Positions 5,022-16,348 of a stretch of 38,570 nt of DNA are shown piece after piece (positions within the stretch are counted from its first letter, which is position 1; each line of letters begins with the position of its first letter). Source of the stretch: Nitrosopumilales archaeon (lineage in GTDB: Archaea > Thermoproteota > Nitrososphaeria > Nitrososphaerales > Nitrosopumilaceae); assembly GCA_007280335.1 (NCBI GenBank), contig QYQE01000009.1, positions 1-38,570 on the forward strand, read 5' to 3'. The notes beneath the pieces were generated by a model. The model saw only the letters and a list, made by a program, of their open reading frames with translations. It was not told the origin of the DNA and ran no database searches. Position numbers and translations under genes: made by a program.

Positions 5022-5545
5022 CTATTTCGCTATTATTCCAATATCCATGTGATTGTTCATCATGGAATGCATTGACTTTCCAGCAGGAATTACATGTGTA
5101 TGTAATGTGTAATATCCAGGAGAATCAAGTGTGAATTTGACCAGATATGTTCCACCTCCTAGATTTTCAGCATCAAACATCCCGCCTATCATATTCATGC
5201 TACTCATAGGCGCACCTTCTTCTAATCCAACAGTTACCTGAGCGTCAGTTAGAGGATTACCAGTATTTTTGTCCAGTACAAGGAGTTTGACTTGAGCTTC
5301 TTTTCCCACTGTTACTTGCTGGCTTGATTGTATTTTTATATAACATTTTTTGGATCTTGATTCATCATACTTGATATCATACCGCCGCCTTCCATCATAG
5401 AATTAGTAGAAAGGTTCTTCCAGCCCTGCATCATCGATGTAGGTGAGCATCCCAGACCAAATACCGTATTTGAAAAAAGACCAGCTATCGTAACTACTGC
5501 AGCTATTGCGATTGCTGTCACTATCAAGGTTTTATTAAATGACAA
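5022..5545 (-). pseudogene. Secreted Met-rich YtkA/FixH-like protein, split by a frameshift
   Basis: Two adjacent frames look like one gene. The upstream part (5336-5545, TTG start) has a signal anchor (NKTLIVTAIAIAAVVTIAG) and Met-rich motifs (SMMQ, MMEGGGMISSMMNQ), then stops. The downstream part (5022-5309) has no signal peptide and is a YtkA/FixH-like beta domain (VKLLVLDKNTGNPLTDAQV, GGTYLVKFTLDSPGYYTLH) ending in a Met/His-rich tail. One inserted base at about 5346-5355, beside a six-A run (coding strand), joins them as ...DPKNVYIKIQSSQQVTVGKE..., about 174 residues. Met/His content suggests Cu(I) binding outside the cell. A TATA (5565-5577) and a palindromic operator lie upstream. It may be a true mutation or a sequence error. 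Confidence 0.7.
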
Positions 5546-5583
5546 TAGCTATAATGGTTTCTTGCCATATTTTAATTGAGATA

Positions 5584-5597
5584 TTTACAATTGTAAA
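5584..5597. promoter_or_regulatory. Palindromic operator TTTACAATTGTAAA, site 1
   Basis: A perfect 14-bp palindrome between the divergent Met-rich protein (start 5545) and the YHS miniprotein (start 5639). Its centre is 45.5 bp from one start and 48.5 bp from the other. TATA-like boxes lie on both sides (5565-5577 leftward, 5607-5615 rightward), each about 26 bp from its start codon. The site therefore sits just upstream of both core promoters. Confidence 0.85.
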
Positions 5598-5638
5598 ATA
5601 CTCTAGTTAAATATCTCCAGAACCATACGAGTTTGAAA

Positions 5639-5776
5639 ATGGCTATAGATCCAGTATGCAAAATGGAAGTAGATGGAAAGAGCGCGTCGTCATCAAGCCA
5701 CGGCGGTCAGACCTATTATTTTTGCTGTCCGTCATGCAAAGGCGCATTCGATAGGAATCCTGCCAAGTATTCTTGA
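5639..5776 (+). CDS. YHS-domain metal-binding miniprotein
   Basis: A 45-residue protein that is nearly all YHS domain: it opens with AIDPVCKMEVD and ends with TYYFCCPSCKGAFDRNPAKY. The three-cysteine set C7, C30, C33 (plus C29) forms the metal site, as in YHS/TRASH domains of copper chaperones and CopA N-termini. I infer a cytosolic copper shuttle or sensor. The ATG at 5639 lies 26 bp after a TATA-like box and downstream of operator site 1, so it is likely leaderless and part of the copper regulon. Confidence 0.85.
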   Translation: MAIDPVCKMEVDGKSASSSSHGGQTYYFCCPSCKGAFDRNPAKYS

Positions 5777-5848
5777 GTGCAGACTCCCACCAACAACAGT
5801 AGTGAATTTCTTAGAGAATTCTTTTCGTTGTATGATTCCATTACTGGC

Positions 5849-6994
5849 CTAGCCAAAAGTAAATGTGTAGATCTGAAAGCCTGATTGAGCCGCAATTGTA
5901 AGTGTATGTGAGCCAGCAGTACTGCTAGAGACAATATTGTATAATCTATTTTCTGACACGTGAATTATTCCATTTTGAACATCTGTACCTGCGTAGCTGG
6001 AACTAATTGGATTCCCATCAAGCATAATCTGAAGGTCAGCCTTGTTTGCTGCAACTATGTGAACATCTTTTGCAAAGTACGGCAATACTATCCTGCCTGT
6101 CTGTGATACGAGCTTCATGCTGTCGGGAAGATTCTGCCACTGGCCTTCCAAGTAAAATTTGTCTTGTTGCAGATTGGATGGAAGCGAATAACTCACGATT
6201 TCATCTGCTTTGAATCCTTCAGAATTTCCAAGAAAGCTTCTTCCAGTGGCAAAATTGTAACCAAAGTAGAGCTCCGGAGTCTGCTGGTTTGCAAACTGGT
6301 GTTCTTTTATGTTAACAAGAGACTGGTCTGAATTAACATTTAATCCCAAGCGTTGGTTTCGCTCGTCAAGAAGTTGTTGTATTACTTTTTCAGTCTCGTC
6401 ATATGCTCCCTCTCCAAAGTGCGTGTGTCGTATATGGCCTAAAGAATCCGTGAGATATTCAGCAGGCCAATATCTATTTCCAAAAGCGTTCCACGTGCTG
6501 TGATCATTGTCAAGCACTGTAGGATATTTTAGACCGTACTTTGCTACAGCCATCTTGACATTGTTGATGTCTTTCTCAAATTCAAACTCTGGAGAATGAA
6601 CTCCTATGATGAGCAATCCCTTGTCTGAATATTTTTCGTTCCACGCCTTCAGATACGGAAATGTCCTGATACAGTTGATGCAGCTGTACGTCCAGAAATC
6701 ATAGAGTACTACTTTGTCTTTCATTGCTGCCTTGAGATCTTCTGGCGTAGTGTTGACATATCCTGATATTCCTACAAGGTTTGGCGCAAGGGGATACTGG
6801 CTTTCATCAACTTGCGGCACGGTCTTTGTACCTATACTAGTTGCAGCATCAGAATTCTGCTTGTTGTCGCTTACCGGATTTTGCAGGGAAATTTCTTTTG
6901 GCTTGTCAAGTGTGGTAAAGTAATAACCAATTCCTCCTATTGCGACAACAACAATTATCGCAACTATTGCAGCGGTTTTTATTTCGTTTCTCAT
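5849..6994 (-). CDS. DipZ/TlpA-type membrane-anchored thioredoxin
   Basis: A thiol-disulfide oxidoreductase outside the cell membrane. Residues 7-27 are a signal anchor. A TlpA-like thioredoxin domain (about 75-225) has the active site WTYSCINCIR (C105, C108) and the partner loop KYPTVLDNDHSTWNAFG. The C-terminal region (about 240-381: TPELYFGY, FYLEGQW, DGNPI) matches the carbohydrate-binding-like domain of mycobacterial DipZ. In DipZ it is fused to a CcdA membrane domain; here CcdA is the separate gene just upstream, 4 bp away, so both form an operon. CcdA presumably feeds it electrons. Confidence 0.88.
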   Translation of the reverse strand: MRNEIKTAAIVAIIVVVAIGGIGYYFTTLDKPKEISLQNPVSDNKQNSDAATSIGTKTVPQVDESQYPLAPNLVGISGYVNTTPEDLKAAMKDKVVLYDFWTYSCINCIRTFPYLKAWNEKYSDKGLLIIGVHSPEFEFEKDINNVKMAVAKYGLKYPTVLDNDHSTWNAFGNRYWPAEYLTDSLGHIRHTHFGEGAYDETEKVIQQLLDERNQRLGLNVNSDQSLVNIKEHQFANQQTPELYFGYNFATGRSFLGNSEGFKADEIVSYSLPSNLQQDKFYLEGQWQNLPDSMKLVSQTGRIVLPYFAKDVHIVAANKADLQIMLDGNPISSSYAGTDVQNGIIHVSENRLYNIVSSSTAGSHTLTIAAQSGFQIYTFTFG

Positions 6995-6998
6995 AGAA

Positions 6999-7730
6999 TC
7001 AACTCAGAAGAAGATTGTTCAAAAGAGGAAAGCTGGCTATTGCTGCAAGCTGATTGGTAAAAACCAGTACTCCTAGTAACACTATGAGTGAACCCATCGT
7101 AATGGAATAGTACTTGAGATGTTTGCTTATGGATTTGATAAGTCTGGTAAATCTGGAAAAGAATACTCCCATCAAGATAAATGGAATTCCAAGTCCAAAC
7201 GAATAGCTTAGGAGTAACACAAAGGCATGGCTTGGAGTAGTAGCTGCCAAGGTGAGAATGCTTCCAAGAATTGGCCCTATGCATGGAGTCCAGCAGGTGG
7301 CAAACGCAAGACCAAAAATAAAAGAAAGAGGATAGCTGACCTTGGTTCTATTTGGAAAAATTTTTTTCTCAAAATTTAATCTTGGAATCTTGATTGACAA
7401 TAACATGAATGCGCCAAAGCCTATGATGATTATTCCTCCAACATGATTCAAATCAGATGTTAACGTGGAAGCAGCTTTGGAAAGCACGCTGTTTAGGATT
7501 ACACCAAATATTGAAAACACGACAGAAAATCCCAGAACAAAAAATATCGTATTCATCAAAACATTGAGTCTGTTGGTGGCAAGATTGATGGTACCATTGT
7601 TTCGTTGAAGCTCGGTAATAGTTGTTCCAGATATGTATGCAATAAATGCAGGTATTACAGGCAATATGCATGGAGCTAGAAAAGATCCAAGGCCTGCTAA
7701 AGCCGCAATTGCAATGGTAAGCTCCTGCAT
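6999..7730 (-). CDS. ccdA: CcdA/DsbD-type transmembrane electron carrier
   Basis: It moves reducing equivalents from cytoplasmic thioredoxin across the membrane to extracytoplasmic thiol proteins. There are six to seven membrane segments. The redox cysteines are in LAPCILPVIP (C21) and CWTPCIGPI (C146, C150), each next to prolines as in CcdA. An in-frame TTG at 7781 would add 17 polar residues; the ATG at 7730 gives the normal CcdA start (MQELTIAIAALAGLGSFLAP), so I chose it. It is followed within 4 bp by the DipZ-like thioredoxin and preceded by the His-rich secreted protein. Confidence 0.9.
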   Translation of the reverse strand: MQELTIAIAALAGLGSFLAPCILPVIPAFIAYISGTTITELQRNNGTINLATNRLNVLMNTIFFVLGFSVVFSIFGVILNSVLSKAASTLTSDLNHVGGIIIIGFGAFMLLSIKIPRLNFEKKIFPNRTKVSYPLSFIFGLAFATCWTPCIGPILGSILTLAATTPSHAFVLLLSYSFGLGIPFILMGVFFSRFTRLIKSISKHLKYYSITMGSLIVLLGVLVFTNQLAAIASFPLLNNLLLS

Positions 7731-7790
7731 GGCTTCAGGTCTGCATCTTTTTATTAATGCTTTATTCCAAATCTCTTCCAAAACATTAGA

Positions 7791-8255
7791 CTATTTTGTG
7801 CTAAAGGAAAGTATTATTTTGTCACTATCTTTGAGGATGTATTTTTGATAGTCTGGAACTGGCTGACCGTTGACTGTCATGGTTACTTGTTTATATCCAC
7901 TAAGATTCAGTCCCCAGATGTCGAGCAGCTGCCCAAATGTGTAATATCGGTTTGCGTAAGATTCCACATGAATGGTGCCAGAAGTATCATGCGTATGTAG
8001 TGGAGCCATTCCTTTCATGCCATACGAATCAAGCGAATGATCTTGCCACATCTGCGGATCTATTCCTATCTGTGCAGGTACTGCAGCAGGCTTGCCATCT
8101 ATTACAAGGGTGAGACTTGGATGAAAGTGCATCATGCCCATGGAGTCCATTGGCGGATTGGTATAGGCATTTCCGGTTAAGGTTTTTGGCTGTTGATGTG
8201 TCATAAAAATTGCAATTCCTACAGCTATTGCTATTGCCACACATATTGCAATCAA
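7791..8255 (-). CDS. Secreted His/Met-rich protein, paralogue A
   Basis: A 154-residue protein with an N-terminal hydrophobic anchor (residues 1-19) and a histidine- and methionine-rich body: MDSMGMMHFHP, MWQDHSLDSYGMKGM, PLHTHDTSGTIHVES. The C-terminal half (VTMTVNGQPV, DSDKIILSF) looks like a ubiquitin-like beta fold. It is paralogous to 13579-14145, sharing the PVPAQIGI-type strand, the HTH...GxIHxES motif and the FGQLLDIW motif. Copper binding is a reasonable inference from side chains and operon (first gene before ccdA-dipZ), not shown. The TTG at 8255 is used because no ATG is in frame upstream. Confidence 0.75.
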   Translation of the reverse strand: MIAICVAIAIAVGIAIFMTHQQPKTLTGNAYTNPPMDSMGMMHFHPSLTLVIDGKPAAVPAQIGIDPQMWQDHSLDSYGMKGMAPLHTHDTSGTIHVESYANRYYTFGQLLDIWGLNLSGYKQVTMTVNGQPVPDYQKYILKDSDKIILSFSTK

Positions 8256-8358
8256 TTTTGGTTTCTTTGATCTTGTTCTGTTCTTTGGATTCTCGTCTTG
8301 TTTTATTTTCTTTTACCTCTTTTCATACTCAGATAACTGCCATATTAATTACTAGTAG

Positions 8359-8372
8359 TTTACAATTGTAAA
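8359..8372. promoter_or_regulatory. Palindromic operator TTTACAATTGTAAA, site 2
   Basis: A perfect copy located about 110 bp upstream of the leftward His-rich/ccdA/dipZ operon (start 8255) and just past the 3' end of the YHS gene at 8405. Spacing to the operon start is longer than at the other sites, so a leader transcript or a different promoter position is likely. The following bases (8373-8400) resemble those after site 1. Confidence 0.75.
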
Positions 8373-8404
8373 ATATTCCAGTCATATCTCAAGAACCATG
8401 TATG

Positions 8405-8596
8405 TTAGCAACATCCGCCTCCACGGTCACGAGAATTTCTTCTTTCTTCTGCCATACTTTTTTCTTCTTCTGCTCGTTGTTCTATATACCGTTGTGCGTG
8501 TTCTTCAGAACAAAGATATTTCCCAAATCTTTTGATGCCTGATTCTTTGTTTACATCCATTCCGCATACAGGACAGTGTTTTGTTGATCCAAACAT
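8405..8596 (-). CDS. YHS/TRASH-like metal-binding miniprotein with GGGCC tail
   Basis: A 63-residue cytosolic protein. Residues 8-40 form a YHS-like metal site: CPVCGMDVN, then GKYLCSEEHAQRY. A charged, probably helical segment follows (EQRAEEEKSMAEERR), and the protein ends in GGGCC, a further thiol pair. I infer copper binding or delivery to CopA, whose gene lies next upstream. It has operator site 3 centred 45 bp before the ATG and a TATA-like AATTAAAATATC about 26 bp before it. Confidence 0.82.
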   Translation of the reverse strand: MFGSTKHCPVCGMDVNKESGIKRFGKYLCSEEHAQRYIEQRAEEEKSMAEERRNSRDRGGGCC

Positions 8597-8634
8597 GTCT
8601 TTACTGGGAAACCGATGATATTTTAATTCGATAG

Positions 8635-8648
8635 TTTACAATTGTAAA
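8635..8648. promoter_or_regulatory. Palindromic operator TTTACAATTGTAAA, site 3
   Basis: A perfect 14-bp copy centred 45.5 bp upstream of the ATG (8596) of the leftward YHS miniprotein, immediately outside its TATA-like box. Position relative to the start is the same as at sites 1, 4 and 5. Confidence 0.85.
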
Positions 8649-8665
8649 ATTTCAATGGGGGGAGA

Positions 8666-8724
8666 GGCCCGATTCTTAAAATAGTTATATTTTATGGCAG
8701 ACATAACCATAGGCGAATCGGACC
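8666..8724. repeat. Nested inverted repeats between copA and YHS gene
   Basis: An outer stem pairs CCGATTC (8669-8675) with GAATCGG (8715-8721), extended by two more pairs past one mismatch. Inside it TATGG (8693-8697) pairs with CCATA (8707-8711). The nested hairpin lies in the 190-bp gap downstream of copA. It could be a transcript 3' end structure or a small RNA; it lacks a clear T-run terminator. Confidence 0.4.
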
Positions 8725-8784
8725 CACACTTCATTTTATGAAATAGTAATAAAGAGATTTTTCCAAATCTATTCCAAATAATAA

Positions 8785-11244
8785 TTAATTATTCTTTTTC
8801 TTTGGTGTCCATCTTTTCATAGCAAGTGAACTCATTGTAACAGAGACAGAACTTGCTGCCATCGCGATTCCGGCAAGTGCTGGATACAGAAATCCCAAGG
8901 CAGCTACCGGAATCAATACTGCGTTGTACATGAAAGCATAAGTCAGGTTCTGCTTTATTTTTGATACAGTCTTCTTTGCAATCTCGATTGCAGTAACAAC
9001 ATCACGTATGTCGTCCCTGATTAGTATCACTTTGCCGGCCTCTATCGCAATGTCAGTACCGGATCCGATTGCAATTCCAACATCGGCTGCAGTAAGAGCC
9101 GGCGCATCATTTATTCCGTCACCAATCATGGCAACCTTCTTGCCTTCCCCTTGGATCTTTCTCACAACGTCAACTTTCCCAGAGGGCAAAACATTTGCGA
9201 AGATTCTTTCTATGCCAACCATTGCGGCTATCTTACTTGCAGTCTTTTCATTGTCTCCTGTAAGCATAACAGGTTCTATCTTCATTGATTTCAAAATCGA
9301 GACAGCCTCTTTTGCTCCGTGCTTTGGAGTGTCAAGCAGTCCTATAATTCCAAGAACTATATTGTCTGCTGAAACTATCACCGCAGTTTTACCTTCTTCT
9401 TGAAGATTCTCAATCACTTGGTTCGAATGCGAAGTGTCTATGTTTTGATTTTGCATGAATGCTGGACCGCCAACCTTCAAGCTCAAATTGTTGTAGGTAG
9501 CTATCACACCAAGTCCTGGAATCGCTTCAAAGTATGACGCATCATCTATTTTCATTCCGTGATTTTGTGCATGTACTACAATCGACTTGGCTAACGGATG
9601 TTCAGAGCCTTTCTCTGCAATAGCGGCAAGGTATAGTGTTGCAATATTATTTTTGTCAGAATCAATGGAAAAAACTACAGTAGTTAATTTTGTTATTTCA
9701 ATTACATCTGTCACTTGTGGTTTTCCTTGGGTTAGTGTACCGGTCTTGTCAAAGATTGCTACCGAGATCTTGTTTAACAGTTCCATGGCTTCTCCGCCTC
9801 TGAATATCACACCATTTGATGCACCTTTGCTCATGCCAACCATGATTGCAGTCGGAGTGGCAAGACCAAGTGCACATGGACATGCAACTACAAGCACAGC
9901 AACTGCCGGAATTATTGCAGCACTAGTAACTCCATGTGCTACTACAAAATACCAGATCAGGAAAGTAGATAGAGCAACAATCATGACAGCGTATGCAAAA
10001 TATCCTGCAATCTTGTCAACTAATTTTTGAAGAATTGGTTTTCTTCCCATTGCTTCTTCCACGAGCTTTACTACTTGCGAAAGAAACGAATCAGAACCGA
10101 CCTTGGTTGCCTTCACGAGAATCATGCCCTCTTGGTTAATCGTACCTCCAACCACACTGTCTCCTACTTTTTTTGTGGTAGGGATAGACTCGCCAGTTAT
10201 CATGGATTCATCTACTGCAGATGTTCCTAGAACCACGGAAGAATCCACAGGAATTTTCTCACCAGGTCTCACCACTAGAATGTCTCCTGGCTGTATGAGT
10301 TCTATCGCTATCTCAGTCTCTTCATCATTCTCCTTTCGGATTCTTGCAGTCTTGGGCTGGAGCTCAAGCATCTTCCTAATTATAGAGCTGGTCTTGCCTT
10401 TGGTTTTCAGCTCCATGTATTTCCCGAGAATTATGAATGTGATGACGACTGCAGCAGCATCATAATACATACTGTGCCAGTCAGGAACTGGAAACGTGTT
10501 GAATGCGCTAAAGATGTAGGCTGTAGTTGTACCGAGCACAACCAGAGTGTCCATGTTTGCAGATCTCATCTTTGCGATTCTGAATGCACCTGTATAGAAC
10601 CTGCTTCCGGTCACAAACTGAACTACTGACGCAAACGCAAACATCGCATATGCTGCAATGTTTGTTCCAGCTGCAGGCAAAAATTTGAAAACTTCTGGAT
10701 AACTAAATAGCATAACTGGAATTGTGAAAACAACTCCTATTATGAACAAGTGCTTAAGCTTTCTTGCCTCCATGTCCTGAGTTGACACTCCAAGATCCTC
10801 GCTCAGTATTTCATATCCAAGCTCCGTGATCTTCCTTCTGATATCAGCAAGTGACAGCAGTGCAGAGTTATATTCAATGTTAACTTGCGAGCTTCCGTAG
10901 TTGACAGACACAGACTTGATGCCGTCTAGTTGATGCAGTCTTTGTTCAAGTCTTTCTGCATCCGTGGAATCAGAAACTCCACCAAGCTTCATAGTTAGTT
11001 TCTCGTAGACTACCTTGTAGCCAATCTCTTCGATTGCTTTTTCAATTGAATCTAGTTTTACTTTGGTTTGATCAAATTCTAGTGTAGCTTTTTCTGTCGC
11101 CAGATTGACTTCAACCTTATTTACTCCTGGTACCTCTGAAACAGATTTCTGGATAGAGCTGACACATCCTGCGCAATGCATTCCGCCTATTTTTATCACG
11201 GTGCGTTTGGTCTTTTCTTCTTGCTTGGCTACATCTACGGTCAT
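8785..11244 (-). CDS. copA: Copper-exporting P1B-type ATPase
   Basis: It pumps Cu+ out of the cytoplasm using ATP. The 819 residues show two N-terminal HMA domains: the first has the metal motif GMHCAGC (C24, C27), while the second (about 83-147) has the fold but no CxxC. Then come the actuator TGES (350-353), the intramembrane metal site CPC (455-457), the phosphorylation motif DKTGT (499-503), the HP-type GSEHPLA motif and GDGINDAP. The C-terminal membrane helices carry the conserved Asn and Met-Ser residues ([12 protein letters not shown]). It is divergent from the TRASH-domain regulator across a 92-bp gap containing the 20-bp palindrome, centred 47 bp from the ATG. This strongly suggests copper control. 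Confidence 0.97.
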
Positions 11245-11281
11245 ACAATATCATATACCACTGACATTTACTTAACTATGG

Positions 11282-11301
11282 CACTTTACAATTGTAAAGT
11301 G
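11282..11301. promoter_or_regulatory. 20-bp perfect palindrome between copA and its putative regulator, site 4
   Basis: CACTTTACAATTGTAAAGTG is self-complementary over all 20 bases and contains the 14-bp core at 11285-11298. It is centred 47 bp from the copA start and 45 bp from the start of the Lrp-TRASH gene. On the right, GATATACA (11307-11314) is a TATA box 26 bp before the regulator ATG, so that transcript is probably leaderless and the site lies at about -53 to -39. Confidence 0.9.
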
Positions 11302-11336
11302 TACAAGATATACATCCATGAGACGTAATCTTTGTC

Positions 11337-11774
11337 ATGCCGTTCAGATTAGATGATGTTGATATTGCCGTTCTAGAGTCTCTCCTCAAGGACGGGAGAA
11401 AATCCTTCAGGCAGATTTCAAGGGAGATAAGCGTAAGCACTCCTACTGTCACGCAGCGATATGAGAAGCTAGTTAACATGGGCCTGATCAAGGCAGTCAT
11501 GCCTATCATAGATCTTGGCATGATCGAAAACAAAGCAAGCGAAAAGCTGGACCAGATAAGGCTCAAGACAATCAAGAACCACAACATCAAGATCAGCAAG
11601 GATACAATAGTGAAGATGATATGTGACTATTGCAAGGGCCCCGTACATGAGAAGCCACACATGCTCAAGTTCGCAAATCTTGAAAGATTTTTCTGCTGCA
11701 CATCATGTAAGTCGTTATACAAGGAAAAGTACAAGGGAAGAATAGATTCGCTTACAAGCCGGAATAATTTCTGA
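11337..11774 (+). CDS. Lrp/AsnC-type regulator with C-terminal TRASH metal-sensing domain (CopR/CopT-like)
   Basis: A DNA-binding metal-responsive regulator. Residues 5-50 form an Lrp/AsnC helix-turn-helix (LDDVDIAVLESLLKDGRKSF, SVSTPTVTQRYEKL). A linker with conserved helices follows, and residues 93-133 form a TRASH domain: CDYC (C96, C99), then RFFCCTSCKSLYKEKY (C120, C121, C124). In Sulfolobus-type archaea, TRASH-domain regulators of this architecture sit beside copA and respond to copper. The Lrp ligand-binding RAM domain is replaced by the TRASH domain. It is divergent from copA and its promoter carries site 4, so autoregulation is likely. Confidence 0.92.
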   Translation: MPFRLDDVDIAVLESLLKDGRKSFRQISREISVSTPTVTQRYEKLVNMGLIKAVMPIIDLGMIENKASEKLDQIRLKTIKNHNIKISKDTIVKMICDYCKGPVHEKPHMLKFANLERFFCCTSCKSLYKEKYKGRIDSLTSRNNF

Positions 11775-12092: not shown

Positions 12093-12106
12093 TTTACAAT
12101 TGTAAA
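12093..12106. promoter_or_regulatory. Palindromic operator TTTACAATTGTAAA, site 5
   Basis: A perfect copy centred 46.5 bp upstream of the ATG (12146) of the rhodanese remnant, with a TATA-like CTAAAATAC (12115-12123) 26-27 bp before that ATG. The promoter architecture is intact although the gene is not. Confidence 0.85.
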
Positions 12107-12735: not shown

Positions 12736-13572
12736 TTGGAAAAGCAGAAGATAGTTCAGCGTTCTCATAAGATGCTCATTATTGTTGGATTTGTCGCAAT
12801 GCTGATCTCGTTTCTAGCGTACTGGAATAACCACTCGCTCATGATCACACCAGCTGTCATGCCAGCATTACAAAGACTCGCGATAGTGGCATACGTAATC
12901 ATGTTCCTGTCTTTTGGTTCTATCGGATGGGGCTTGCACCGATTCTACAAGGTAAAGATCAGAGATGCCGACGATTCTACTTCATCCATAATTTCAAGCG
13001 TGATTAACAGCAAAAAGTCAAAGCGGATCTTTGTCATCAGTGCCATTGGATACGGCCTGTTCTTTGCATTCGGCTCAGGCATAATACTCTACAAGCCAGA
13101 GCTGAACTTTACTGATTACGGCCTTCCAGTGCCAATGGCAGAGTTATCCCCCTGCTGCGGTCTTCCAGGACAGATGCCCATGATTCTTGCCACATTCACA
13201 GAGCACTGGGGCTTTCAATTGATTCCACTCAATCTGGTGTTGTGGGTGATAGTCTCCTTCTTGGTTGGTCTTAACTTTACAATGATGGCAAAGGCATTTT
13301 CAATTGCAAAAAAAAGCAAGGGATTAGGAATCTTCGGAGCAGCTACAGGTTGTTTTGTTGGATGTCCGACATGCGCTGGTACCGTATTCTTTTTGCTCAC
13401 TAACATGGGGATTACAGCTACAACGACTGCAACCACAATATTTCTTACAACGTACGGACTGCAACTTCAAAGTATTTTCATGGCAATATCCATTCCAGCA
13501 CTGTTGGCAACTCCTTACATAATGGCAAAGGCAATCAGAAAATCTTCTCAAGAATCATGTTCATTGAAATAG
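12736..13572 (+). CDS. Polytopic membrane protein with CC and CxxxCxxC motifs
   Basis: A 278-residue protein with about six hydrophobic segments (near 13-30, 45-66, 97-118, 160-185, 196-225, 230-258). Two cysteine sites stand out: SPCCGLPGQ in a loop (C140, C141) and GCFVGCPTCAG at the edge of a helix (C206, C210, C213). No known family is recognised. The second motif can be lined up with SSACSACSTT in the membrane protein at 14915, suggesting a shared helix design. A TATA-like TTTAATATC lies about 27 bp before the TTG start. Neighbours (DsbA-like, CCCHC protein) suggest a role in extracytoplasmic thiol or copper chemistry; this is inference. Confidence 0.65.
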   Translation: MEKQKIVQRSHKMLIIVGFVAMLISFLAYWNNHSLMITPAVMPALQRLAIVAYVIMFLSFGSIGWGLHRFYKVKIRDADDSTSSIISSVINSKKSKRIFVISAIGYGLFFAFGSGIILYKPELNFTDYGLPVPMAELSPCCGLPGQMPMILATFTEHWGFQLIPLNLVLWVIVSFLVGLNFTMMAKAFSIAKKSKGLGIFGAATGCFVGCPTCAGTVFFLLTNMGITATTTATTIFLTTYGLQLQSIFMAISIPALLATPYIMAKAIRKSSQESCSLK

Positions 13573-13578
13573 ATTTGA

Positions 13579-14145
13579 CTATTCCCCTTCTGGGAACTGA
13601 TAGAACGATGGGATTTGTGAAGGCTCATTTCCGTACACGAGCACAATCTCATCATGCTGATTTATTTTGGTCTCGCTCAAGCTAGTGCTCACTGCTTGTC
13701 CGTTGACAAATATTTTTGGCGCGGCTCCTGAAATAGGAAATTCATTTGTAGCCTTCTAGATGTCAACGAACTGTCCCAAAGTGAACTCTAGTGATTTTGG
13801 CGATTCCATGTGTATTATACCATCTATTGAATGAGTGTGCATCCAGTAGAGGCATGTGTTGTCCACTATGCCTATTTGTGCTGGAACGGGGACGGAGTTA
13901 CCATTAACAAAGACATCAAGATGAGCATGGTTGTGCAGTACAGCATATTCGTTGATATTGCATGCTATGCCGTCGATTACCTGAGCTGCGCTCGTTGGAG
14001 CTTTGTCTAAATCGTAACTGACGTAAGCAATTGCAACAATGATCCCAGCAAAAATGCCTATCGCAATCAGTTTGTTTCTATGCTTAGAATTTTGTCCGAG
14101 TTCTTGTTTTCTTTCTGACAATGAGTTTAAACTATAAATGGGCAT
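13579..14145 (-). pseudogene. Secreted His-containing protein, paralogue B, interrupted by an in-frame TAG
   Basis: The frame from ATG 14145 stops at TAG 13756-13758, but the same frame continues with coding character to TAG 13579-13581 (188 codons in total). The stop falls in FTLGQFVDI-stop-KATNEFP. The paralogue at 7791 reads YTFGQLLDIWGLNLSG, so the TAG replaces a conserved Trp (TGG to TAG, one base). The remainder (PKIFVNGQAVST, INQHDEIVLVYGNE) matches the paralogue's C-terminal beta domain (MTVNGQPV, DSDKIILSF). The N-terminus has a membrane anchor (residues 27-43) and His motifs HNHAHLDVF and MHTHSIDGIIHMES. It is a recent nonsense mutation, read-through, or a base error. Confidence 0.75.
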
Positions 14146-14242
14146 AAATAATTATCAGTCATATATTAGGTGAAAAAATATTTCAGAAAAGCCACGTAAA
14201 CTAACTATTGATATCACAAAAGGAACGATTCTCCTTTTTGCT

Positions 14243-14911
14243 GTGTTTCTTGTCATTGGATATTTTATTGGAGGAACATTTCCCCCTAGTAATTTCACAG
14301 GAGCTGCAAAAGAATCCAATGTTATGATTCAACAACAACCACAACAGGCGCAACAAACGATGAAACTTCAGATACCGTCGTTTACACCAGCAAGAGGATC
14401 AGACTCGGCTCAGCTCAACATTGTGGAATTTGGCGACTATCAGTGCCCATTCTGTGAGAAATTCTTCCAGGAAACAGAACCTCAAATAATGCAAAACTAT
14501 GTTAACACTGGAAAAGTCAAATTTTATTTCGAGGGAGTTCAATTTGTCGGTCCTGATTCGCTCACATTAGGGCAAGGATCATGGTGTGCAGATGAACAGG
14601 GAAAATACTATGAGTATCACGATCAAATGTATTCAAATCAGGGAAGAGAAAACAGTGGTTGGGGAACTCCAGATAAAGTCAAAGCGCTCGCAGCAGGCAT
14701 AACAGGACTTGATACGCAAAAGTTCAACGCTTGCCTTGACAGTAAAAAATACGAATCTCGAGTGCAACAATTAACGTCGTTTGCGCAAAATGTTGGTGTG
14801 ACTGGGACTCCGACTAGTTTCATAGGAGACAACCAGAAAGGATACATCCCCATTGTTGGAGCACAACCTTATGATGTGTTCAAGCAAGTCATAGACAAGC
14901 AGCTGGGTTAA
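14243..14911 (+). CDS. DsbA-family thiol oxidoreductase, N-terminus apparently frameshifted
   Basis: An extracytoplasmic thioredoxin-fold enzyme of the DsbA/thioredoxin_4 family. It shows the active site QCPFC (C68, C71), preceded by IVEFGDY, a helical insertion with the conserved WCADEQGKYYEYHDQMY, and the cis-Pro loop GVTGTPTSF. The open frame from GTG 14243 has only half a signal anchor. Upstream codons stay open and read SEKPRKLTIDITKGTILLFA, a natural N-terminus, but have no start. Deleting one A from the run at 14173-14178 joins them to GTG 14170, which lies 26 bp after a TATA (about 14143-14153). I infer a true start at 14170 with an indel. The next gene starts 3 bp downstream. Confidence 0.85.
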   Translation: MFLVIGYFIGGTFPPSNFTGAAKESNVMIQQQPQQAQQTMKLQIPSFTPARGSDSAQLNIVEFGDYQCPFCEKFFQETEPQIMQNYVNTGKVKFYFEGVQFVGPDSLTLGQGSWCADEQGKYYEYHDQMYSNQGRENSGWGTPDKVKALAAGITGLDTQKFNACLDSKKYESRVQQLTSFAQNVGVTGTPTSFIGDNQKGYIPIVGAQPYDVFKQVIDKQLG

Positions 14912-14914
14912 ACG

Positions 14915-15451
14915 ATGAATGTTATAGTAATGAAAAGTGCGTTTCTAATAGTTTTCAGAAATCCAGCATATGTGATATCGTCAATCCTGATTTCCTCTTT
15001 CATGTTTTTTATTTTCATACTGGCAAACAACTTTTCAACTTTCGTCACGGTGATTGGTCTTAATGCTTCTCCAAAATTACTCCTTGATGTGACAACAAAT
15101 GGTGCTTCAAACATACTATATGCTGCCGGTGCTGCTCTGTTTTCGTCCATTATAGCTGTTTCAATACTTTCTGGAATAACAATCTCCATGATAATCTATC
15201 AGCTGCGCATCACAAGATCCTTTGGTGGTAAGAAAAACCTTGCAGGCTTTGGAGGAATTTTTGGCGGTGCATTTTCTTCCGCATGCTCTGCCTGTTCTAC
15301 TACATTAGCATCTATTTTTGGAGTAGCAGGGGGACTTGCCATATTTCCTCTGAAGGGATTAGAGATCAGCTTGCCAAGTATCGGCATTCTTGTTGCATCC
15401 ATGTATTTCATTTCCAAAGGCCTGATGGAATCAGGGAGATGTAAGATATGA
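14915..15451 (+). CDS. Membrane protein with a CxxC pair
   Basis: A 178-residue protein with four to five hydrophobic segments (about 18-38, 64-94, 112-142, 147-168). The sequence GGIFGGAFSSACSACSTTLA places C124 and C127 inside or beside a Gly-rich helix, an unusual place for a CxxC. It ends GRCKI. It follows the DsbA-like gene by 3 bp and overlaps the next gene by 4 bp, so the three form an operon. The Cys-Gly helix resembles that of the protein at 12736. A thiol relay partner for the DsbA-like enzyme is an attractive but unproven role. Confidence 0.65.
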   Translation: MNVIVMKSAFLIVFRNPAYVISSILISSFMFFIFILANNFSTFVTVIGLNASPKLLLDVTTNGASNILYAAGAALFSSIIAVSILSGITISMIIYQLRITRSFGGKKNLAGFGGIFGGAFSSACSACSTTLASIFGVAGGLAIFPLKGLEISLPSIGILVASMYFISKGLMESGRCKI

Positions 15452-16152
15452 AAATGGAAATACCGGTAAAGTATCTTGTGACGGGAGGATTATCTGCTGT
15501 TGCAACAGTTTTTTTCATCTTCATAGCTTATCATGGTCCTTCTGTTTCAGAATCTGCATCTCTCCATCCTGCAAACAGTCAACTGCTTGGGATTTACAAC
15601 TCAATTCCAACGAAAACCGGCAAGAATGTATTTTTAGTTCAGAGCAAGAACTTGACCAAGTCAGTAGATCCTGAGCTTGTAGATCTGGACAGCCAGATAA
15701 TTTCGTGTAGCCCTAATGTGAATGACCTGCTAACATCTTCTCCAAACATAGGTGGGAGTTGCACCGGACCAAGCGTACACATTGACAGCATAGATGGAAA
15801 ATATTTGAGCGGCCAGTGCTGTGGGGCCCTCAAGAACACTACAGAATATCATGAACATCTAGAAAAGCTCAAACAGTATTCAGACATATCAGACATACCA
15901 CTCAACCCCTATAAGACTTCGGTAGATGTTGCAAAGAAATGGATTGACTATAACAACAGAACCACACTTAGCACATCCGAGCAGGTAATGTACAATCAGG
16001 CCATGAAAATATCATCAGAGGGACCATGCTGCTGCCATTGCTGGCACTATTATGTCAACGAAGGCATTGCAAAGAAAATGATCCATGACTATGGATACAA
16101 CGCACAGCAGGTATCTGATTTCTGGGATGTTTCTGACATCTGTGGAATATGA
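15448..16152 (+). CDS. Secreted cysteine-rich protein with CCCHCWHYY motif
   Basis: A 234-residue protein with an N-terminal anchor (residues 8-28) and an extracytoplasmic body. It contains 11 cysteines: SCSPN, SCTG, QCCGAL and the cluster PCCCHCWHYY (C194-C196, H197, C198, H200), followed by YVNEGIAKKMIHDYGY and DICGI. The clustered Cys/His residues look like a metal site or multi-disulfide centre. I know of archaeal proteins with a similar CCCHCW motif but no assigned function. It is translationally coupled to the preceding membrane protein (ATGA overlap) and downstream of DsbA. Confidence 0.7.
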   Translation: MKMEIPVKYLVTGGLSAVATVFFIFIAYHGPSVSESASLHPANSQLLGIYNSIPTKTGKNVFLVQSKNLTKSVDPELVDLDSQIISCSPNVNDLLTSSPNIGGSCTGPSVHIDSIDGKYLSGQCCGALKNTTEYHEHLEKLKQYSDISDIPLNPYKTSVDVAKKWIDYNNRTTLSTSEQVMYNQAMKISSEGPCCCHCWHYYVNEGIAKKMIHDYGYNAQQVSDFWDVSDICGI

Positions 16153-16333: not shown

Positions 16334-16348
16334 TTTACAATTGTCAAA
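16334..16348. promoter_or_regulatory. Variant operator TTTACAATTGTCAAA, site 6
   Basis: The left arm and centre match the island palindrome (TTTACAATTGT), but a C is inserted in the right arm before AAA. It lies about 63 bp upstream of the winged-helix gene start (16404), farther than the usual 46 bp. It may be a weak or decayed site. Confidence 0.5.

Follow-up and report, generated by a model that had tools for sequence, protein, structure and literature searches.

We analysed a 38,570-nt stretch of DNA from a Nitrosopumilales archaeon (the window; contig QYQE01000009.1, assembly GCA_007280335.1). Five genes located between positions 12736 and 16152 of it had been proposed, in an earlier note made from the sequence alone, to form an undescribed extracytoplasmic thiol/copper system. 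They code for a membrane protein (A), a secreted His-rich protein (HisSec2), a DsbA-like protein (Dsb), a second membrane protein (B) and a membrane-anchored extracytoplasmic protein (C). That proposal is partly supported and survives in modified form: a conserved, copper-regulated extracytoplasmic unit is what the evidence bears out, and we lean towards reading the whole island to which these genes belong as a CopR-type copper regulon, in which an extracytoplasmic Cu(I)/thiol module resembling Scs/CueP is combined with MerT-like membrane Cys relays. Behind this reading stand a copper-type operator, partner genes conserved around B and C in archaea and bacteria, invariant cysteines, the homology of A and B, and a distant relationship between the B superfamily and MerT.

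Operator palindrome of the island

The copper context of the five genes is mostly found beyond the interval that they occupy: CopA, an Lrp-TRASH regulator, a YHS/TRASH-like protein, CcdA and TlpA are encoded at 5022-11774 (Table 1). The regulator scores 44.8 bits with PF13412 and 27.9 bits with PF08394 (cut-off 27.0). Common to the upstream regions of the island genes is the palindrome TTTACAATTGTAAA. With up to two mismatches allowed, it was found nine times in the window (0.95 expected), a number reached by none of 100 shuffled sequences. The window's own genome (1,296,374 bases, 95% complete) has five exact copies, every one of them inside the island; a copy with one mismatch was found at 16334.

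The search was extended to 22 other genomes, 12 with C and 10 without it. Exact copies occur in 16 of them, at 43 sites in total, and the reversed control pattern gave none. Homologues of CopA, Lrp-TRASH, Dsb, A, B, C, YHS or the His-rich proteins are present in the stretches that surround 38 of the 43 sites; the other five were scored as misses (L169, with a weak propeller match only, L170, L172, L173 and L181). In all ten C-bearing contigs in which the region could be read, an exact copy lies upstream of CopA, and TTTACAATTGTAAA precedes Dsb-B-C in five of the six genomes having that gene order, the window being the exception. In other gene orders, C is found behind CopA or behind an operator-bearing His-rich gene, sometimes with one mismatch in the operator.

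A regulator of the same type, CopR from Pyrococcus furiosus, binds TTNNCAWWWTGNNAA according to excerpts of PMC7830388. The island operator fits this motif except for one central base, its centre being one base shorter. It is also identical to the sites given for the unrelated CopR of Lactococcus in excerpts of PMC7253601, and it differs from the copper-limitation motif of Nitrososphaera viennensis as given in the available part of PMC7785015. We infer that the Lrp-TRASH regulator binds TTTACAATTGTAAA. A CopY/BlaI regulon with its TACANNTGTA box was considered and discarded: PF03965 is absent from the window's own genome and present in 7 of 14 controls. The island shares with the archaeal cop cluster (CopA, CopR/CopT, CopM/CopZ) the divergent pair of P1B ATPase and Lrp-type helix-turn-helix (HTH)-TRASH regulator, a small Cys-rich protein and a similar operator, but differs from it in the shorter operator centre and in the extracytoplasmic genes added under the same operator (A, Dsb-B-C and HisSec-CcdA-TlpA).

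Seven exact copies of TTTACAATTGTAAA were also observed within 17 kb in a genome of ammonia-oxidising archaea (AOA) in which no C was found (L167, G046:C1 1032000-1051500). Genes for two multicopper oxidases, a plastocyanin-like protein, a Met-rich protein, CcdA, DsbA-like proteins, a metal-dependent repressor and an Lrp-TRASH regulator are located there, and this cluster is likely a copper regulon of its own.

Protein families A, B and C and their partners

As the earlier note had it, A, B and C match no family that can be named: none passed a Pfam or NCBIfam cut-off in single-sequence or profile searches, and the B and C profiles matched no PDB sequence at E 0.001. No description of the three proteins was found in the open-access literature, which is weak evidence as most subscription papers are outside its coverage. 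Neither of the two outcomes that the earlier note had named as refuting was observed: none of the proteins falls within an unrelated, well-characterised family, and the genes are conserved together elsewhere, as detailed below.

C was found in 12 of the 151 genomes of the window's family, G028 among them, and also in Nitrosotalea sp. TS, taken from a named collection. The weak match in G028 (27%, E 5.9e-4) and a broken C fragment in G058 were dropped before counting, and contigs present twice (L022, L024 and L183, the same as L016, L018 and L017) were counted once each. The C-bearing archaeal set consisted of 14 genomes (G000, G057, G058, G102, G112, G117, G147, G297, G054, G130, G105, G068, G260 and TS). 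A DsbA-like gene is present in 12 of them and CopA in 11, within stretches several of which are cut by contig ends. A B or B-like gene adjoins C in ten: six have the order Dsb-B-C, TS has A-B-C, and in three a B-like gene follows C. The B-like gene lies farther from C in G105 and G054, and none was seen in G068 and G260. Eight C cysteines (105, 124, 125, 194, 195, 196, 198 and 232) are invariant in the 13 archaeal and bacterial proteins aligned. The structure model of C has a mean predicted local distance difference test (pLDDT) value of 66.7 and is confident only for its helical part, about residues 130-230.

Relatives of C are also encoded on plasmids (13 records in a tblastn search, best E 4e-42), mainly of Sinorhizobium and Ensifer. 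The rhizobial proteins, annotated there too as 'hypothetical protein', are 40-47% identical over most of their length to the C of locus L028. In four of the five rhizobial plasmid neighbourhoods fetched, C directly follows DsbA and CcdA genes, and the surroundings include SCO, multicopper oxidase, DUF411, CusA/CzcA efflux (RND), P-type ATPase or PCu(A)C genes. In the fifth, from Microvirga, SCO and TlpA are encoded within 7 kb and C stands apart. These operons resemble the archaeal loci in holding a C homologue in a copper setting and differ in that neither A nor B was seen in the fetched stretches. C represents an unnamed cross-domain family that extends from archaea to rhizobia. A search of virus contigs yielded none encoding C. 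Of the family names considered for C, DUF5714 failed (best 18.3 bits, cut-off 26.2), PCYCGC never appeared among the Pfam and NCBIfam matches, and a CcmH-like reading gained no support, no CcmH profile having been run. In a distant genome without an AmoA match (L189, G260:C24), C comes after a His-rich gene; the sequence nearby was read as encoding a PadR-like regulator with a TRASH-like tail as well as cupredoxin-like and ZIP-like proteins.

The earlier note had also remarked on a Gly-rich helix common to both membrane proteins. Comparison of 38 A with 40 B proteins (hhalign, 97.7%, E 2.1e-12) shows that this likeness reflects homology rather than chance. In the 38 aligned A proteins C140, C141, C210, C213 and C275 are invariant, and CC, CPxC and the C-terminal Cys are present in every row. 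The CC and CxxxCxxC motifs ascribed to A do exist (the latter as C206xxxC210xxC213), but C206 is not conserved. Among B rows, the CxxC is present in 57 of 57 and the downstream Cys (C176) in 56; this set holds one duplicate, as L049 and L109 are the same B gene. By hydropathy and the positive-inside rule, rough as they are, the CxxC is predicted to lie within a membrane helix, the last Cys to face the cytoplasm and the CC of A to be in an outside loop.

Plasmids of actinobacteria and haloarchaea commonly encode B relatives, annotated as 'hypothetical protein' (16 records with one query, 85 with another). Neither A nor B from the window matched the MerT family PF02411; two bacterial B relatives matched it weakly (16.3 and 17.3 bits, cut-off 32.9; E 0.0099 and 0.005), and one gave a weak match to NCBIfam MerTP (E 0.0015). 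We then compared profiles, using six aligned MerT proteins; a MerT search in the phylum had found 2 in 200, so these were drawn from plasmids. The profile of all B proteins matched MerT at 95.0% (E 3.7e-8), the actinobacterial subset at 96.0% and that of AOA at 39.6%. In all sets, controls remained at 0.1-3% (reversed MerT), at most 4.4% (CcdA) and at most 4.8% (MerC). The aligned part comprises the membrane CxxC (CC in MerT), an ALGxSGA turn, the second helix and the downstream Cys. With MerT/MerP, A and B share a membrane Cys pair in a Gly-rich helix, the LGxSGA turn, a downstream Cys predicted on the cytoplasmic side and an extracytoplasmic CxxC partner. They differ in having CxxC instead of CC and additional N-terminal transmembrane (TM) helices, and in staying below the PF02411 cut-off; moreover, a thioredoxin-fold partner takes the place of the HMA-fold MerP, and the island is devoid of MerA.

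Outside the island, 14 bacterial and haloarchaeal B loci were fetched (L121-L124 and L127-L136). A thioredoxin-fold gene, DsbA-like or TlpA, is present near the B relative in 11 of them, five of which also have CcdA; the distance to TlpA in L135 is about 3 kb. None was found near the B relative in L122, L123 and L134; L123 encodes instead an HMA protein, a P-type ATPase for heavy metals and a metal-sensitive regulator. Regulators of the BlaI/MecI/CopY family were seen near B relatives in actinobacterial plasmids (L128, L130, L131 and L135). A separate observation is that a GCPACT-type B gene adjoins genes named, from reading only, EgtB-/EgtD-like ergothioneine-type genes (L110, 9737-12681).

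In the 300 Nitrososphaeria genomes screened, A was found in 223, B-type proteins in 137 and AmoA in 201. A strict association of A with ammonia oxidation was rejected: 182 genomes have both A and AmoA, 41 only A, 19 only AmoA and 58 neither. Gaps in the assemblies may account for part of these absences. Yet each of the five genomes under genus label g23 that have AmoA lacks A, so ammonia oxidation as such does not depend on A. Core A genes lie close to TatC, PurP-like and other genes with no evident role in copper handling. The core copy, otherwise near-universal, is a broken gene with stops and a frame change in the window's own genome (L099, contig C5 7570-7955), which leaves the island A as the intact copy.

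Gene layout in the window

The five genes and their motifs are where the earlier note had placed them, as are the tight junctions: the Dsb stop codon occupies 14909-14911, 3 bp before the B start, and B and C overlap by 4 bp (15448-15451). Dsb is indeed DsbA-like (PF13462, 89.7 bits, cut-off 23.2; PF01323, 56.1 bits, cut-off 25.6), but its gene begins upstream of the GTG at 14243. The reading frame extends 5' of that codon and relatives align from about 14174-14180. Six loci (the window at 14169-14182, L016, L017, L018, L020 and L023) have in common a GGTGA followed by ATT at the 5' end of Dsb, and their conserved N-terminal stretch contains no ATG, GTG or TTG; the start is therefore probably the ATT at 14180. 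The His-rich paralogue is likewise present, but cut short by an in-frame TAG (13756-13758) at a position that is Trp in L025 and L026, the remainder of the gene being still readable beyond it.

Between 12143 and 12674 a deletion scar was observed, in which the 5' part of a rhodanese gene is fused to the 3' part of a beta-propeller (Vgb-like) gene. In L023 and L024 both genes are intact, side by side and immediately 5' of A.

Table 1. Features of the island; positions are those of the window.
Feature	Position	Strand	Description
Small ORFs 5336 / 5022			ORF 5022 weakly YtkA-like
Operator	5584-5597		upstream of small ORFs 5336/5022
TlpA	5849-6994	-	TlpA/ResA-like extracytoplasmic thioredoxin; Redoxin and Thioredoxin_10 over cut-off
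CcdA	6999-7781	-	CcdA/DsbD-type membrane thiol-reductant protein; DsbD_TM 46.1 bits (cut-off 27.1)
HisSec	7791-8255	-	secreted His-rich protein
Operator	8359-8372		upstream of HisSec-CcdA-TlpA genes
YHS/TRASH-like protein	8405-8596	-	63 amino acids, Cys-rich; label from reading, no Pfam cut-off passed
Operator	8635-8648		upstream of YHS/TRASH-like gene
CopA	8785-11244	-	P1B-type copper ATPase, HMA domains at N terminus; TIGR01511 554.9 bits (cut-off 397)
Operator	11285-11298		between copA and regulator
CopR-type regulator	11337-11774	+	Lrp/AsnC-type HTH and archaeal TRASH domain; divergent from CopA
Operator	12093-12106		A side of island, upstream of rhodanese/beta-propeller scar and A
A	12736-13572	+	278-amino-acid membrane protein, about 6 TM, MerT-like core
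A, Cys features			C140C141 in predicted extracellular loop; intramembrane C210xxC213; C275 at predicted cytoplasmic end
HisSec2	13756-14145	-	secreted His-rich paralogue of HisSec (7791-8255); gene truncated 3' by in-frame TAG
Dsb	14180-14911	+	DsbA-like extracytoplasmic thioredoxin (Thioredoxin_4/DSBA), CPFC active site, N-terminal TM; ATT start at 14180 probable
B	14915-15451	+	178-amino-acid membrane protein, about 4 TM, MerT-like family
B, Cys features			Gly-rich stretch into intramembrane C124xxC127; C176 at predicted cytoplasmic end
C	15448-16152	+	membrane-anchored extracytoplasmic protein, CCCHCWHYY at 194-202

Proposed function and alternatives

In the model that we favour, the Lrp-TRASH regulator would control a Cu(I) homeostasis regulon through TTTACAATTGTAAA, and CopA would export Cu(I) from the cytoplasm. 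C, held outside the membrane by its N-terminal helix, would bind Cu(I) via its eight invariant Cys. Electrons passed on by the CcdA and TlpA of the island would reach the DsbA-like protein, which would hold the C cysteines reduced and, like ScsC, may also be a carrier of Cu(I). A and B would take a soft cargo (Cu(I) or thiol/electron) from an outside partner to the intramembrane CxxC and from there to the Cys at the cytoplasmic end. Metal identity, thiol reduction, transport and its direction, and membrane topology are what we infer here. The earlier note had, as one option, a relay that oxidises C; the analogies with CcdA, TlpA and ScsC point to reduction instead.

The nearest functional precedent is ScsC/CueP: according to excerpts of PMC8900818, ScsB maintains the DsbA-like ScsC in its reduced state, and ScsC is a Cu(I)-binding protein and a partner of CueP. 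With the enterobacterial ScsABCD/CueP system the island shares a DsbA-like protein and a CcdA/DsbD-type supply of reductant in a copper locus, and C would take the part of CueP. The differences are that ScsB has periplasmic domains on both sides of its DsbD membrane domain, whereas the window has a CcdA consisting of DsbD_TM only and a separate TlpA; that C is without similarity to a named family and A and B are without counterpart; and that the regulator is of the archaeal TRASH type and not bacterial. Each part is either a new family or a remote member of one already known; extracytoplasmic copper/thiol homeostasis, the kind of system to which they would belong, is known.

Several observations weigh against this model. 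The window's own Dsb-B-C genes lack an operator, HisSec2 abutting Dsb there, and in the C-bearing strain TS no Dsb gene separates A from B. Few genomes of the class have C (10 of the 300), and its structure model found no PDB match; that of B is of low confidence (pLDDT 60.0), too poor to interpret. Of the 25 AOA B-like loci scanned (L044-L068), 18 (L050-L052 and L054-L068) show no thioredoxin-fold gene up to about 1.5 kb away, so the link between B and a thioredoxin module does not hold everywhere. Finally, the window-type B subset alone reached 2.2% with the MerT profile and A alone 0.8%; because neither matches on its own, the tie of the window's A and B to MerT is transitive, via the bacterial and haloarchaeal B relatives.

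An alternative that takes the MerT kinship literally is that A and B are strict MerT-like Cu(I) importers that would supply the cytoplasm or cuproenzyme assembly, the role of MerP falling to C and the DsbA-like protein. According to excerpts of PMC5715351, Hg(II) handed over by MerP reaches Cys24/25 of MerT and then its cytoplasmic Cys76/82, and the aligned CxxC, LGxSGA turn and downstream Cys, the C-terminal Cys (56/57 B and 38/38 A rows) and the presence of A in 223/300 genomes would all suit such a route. Yet the operator is held in common with CopA, an exporter, A and AmoA occur without each other in 41 and 19 genomes, and the bacterial B relatives are found among thiol/sulfur genes and not metal-uptake genes. 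We regard strict import as a rather unlikely option.

No better placed is the proposal that B, and A with it, are DsbB/CcdA-like electron carriers whose CxxC would swap disulfides with the DsbA-like protein, no metal being moved. The archaeal order DsbA-B-C corresponds to the rhizobial DsbA-CcdA-C; thioredoxin, CcdA and B genes are adjacent in actinobacteria, and thioredoxin genes adjoin B in haloarchaea. However, similarity between the B and CcdA profiles is undetectable (1.1%), and CcdA and B frequently occur together, so that B is not simply a replacement for CcdA. The sole outside kin detected, MerT, carries metal; the movement of electrons rather than metal, as the thiol relay of the earlier note may imply, is not supported.

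More tentative still is a bolder form of the copper-relay reading, in which A and B would be an unrecognised class of MerT-related Cu(I) carriers, loaded or kept reduced by a thioredoxin-fold partner instead of MerP and paired in this island with C as a new cross-domain copper protein with eight cysteines, and A, near-universal in AOA, would be the missing core copper permease. We find improbable that the locus handles reactive sulfur or persulfides, with B moving sulfane sulfur or thiols and the copper genes as bystanders: rhodanese, DsrE, TauE/SafE or metallo-beta-lactamase-fold (MBL) hydrolase genes do lie near actinobacterial and haloarchaeal B relatives, and rhodanese and beta-propeller genes near A in L023, L024 and L026, but the linkage to operator and CopA holds across genomes, and the rhizobial C clusters contain SCO, multicopper oxidase, DUF411 and RND efflux genes. 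A mercury-resistance island with A and B as Hg carriers is very improbable, since the MerT-like core and a MerA-like protein elsewhere in the window's genome (312.7 bits, below the 454 cut-off) are set against an island without merP or merA, the presence of CopA, TRASH regulator and copper-type operator, and MerA over cut-off in one of ten C-bearing genomes, on a different contig.

The proposed CopR-type regulon with its Cu(I)/thiol module bears on the handling of copper by AOA. These archaea depend on copper enzymes, and their copper uptake, buffering and sensing are described as largely unknown in the available part of PMC7785015; Nitrosotalea sinensis is very sensitive to copper according to excerpts of PMC13003922. 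Repeated gains of thioredoxin and Dsb families have been reported for AOA, in an account (PMC7554672) whose accessible sections do not name the unit described here. To this field the locus offers a concrete operator and regulon, an unnamed protein family extending from archaea to rhizobia, and a candidate family of membrane carriers.

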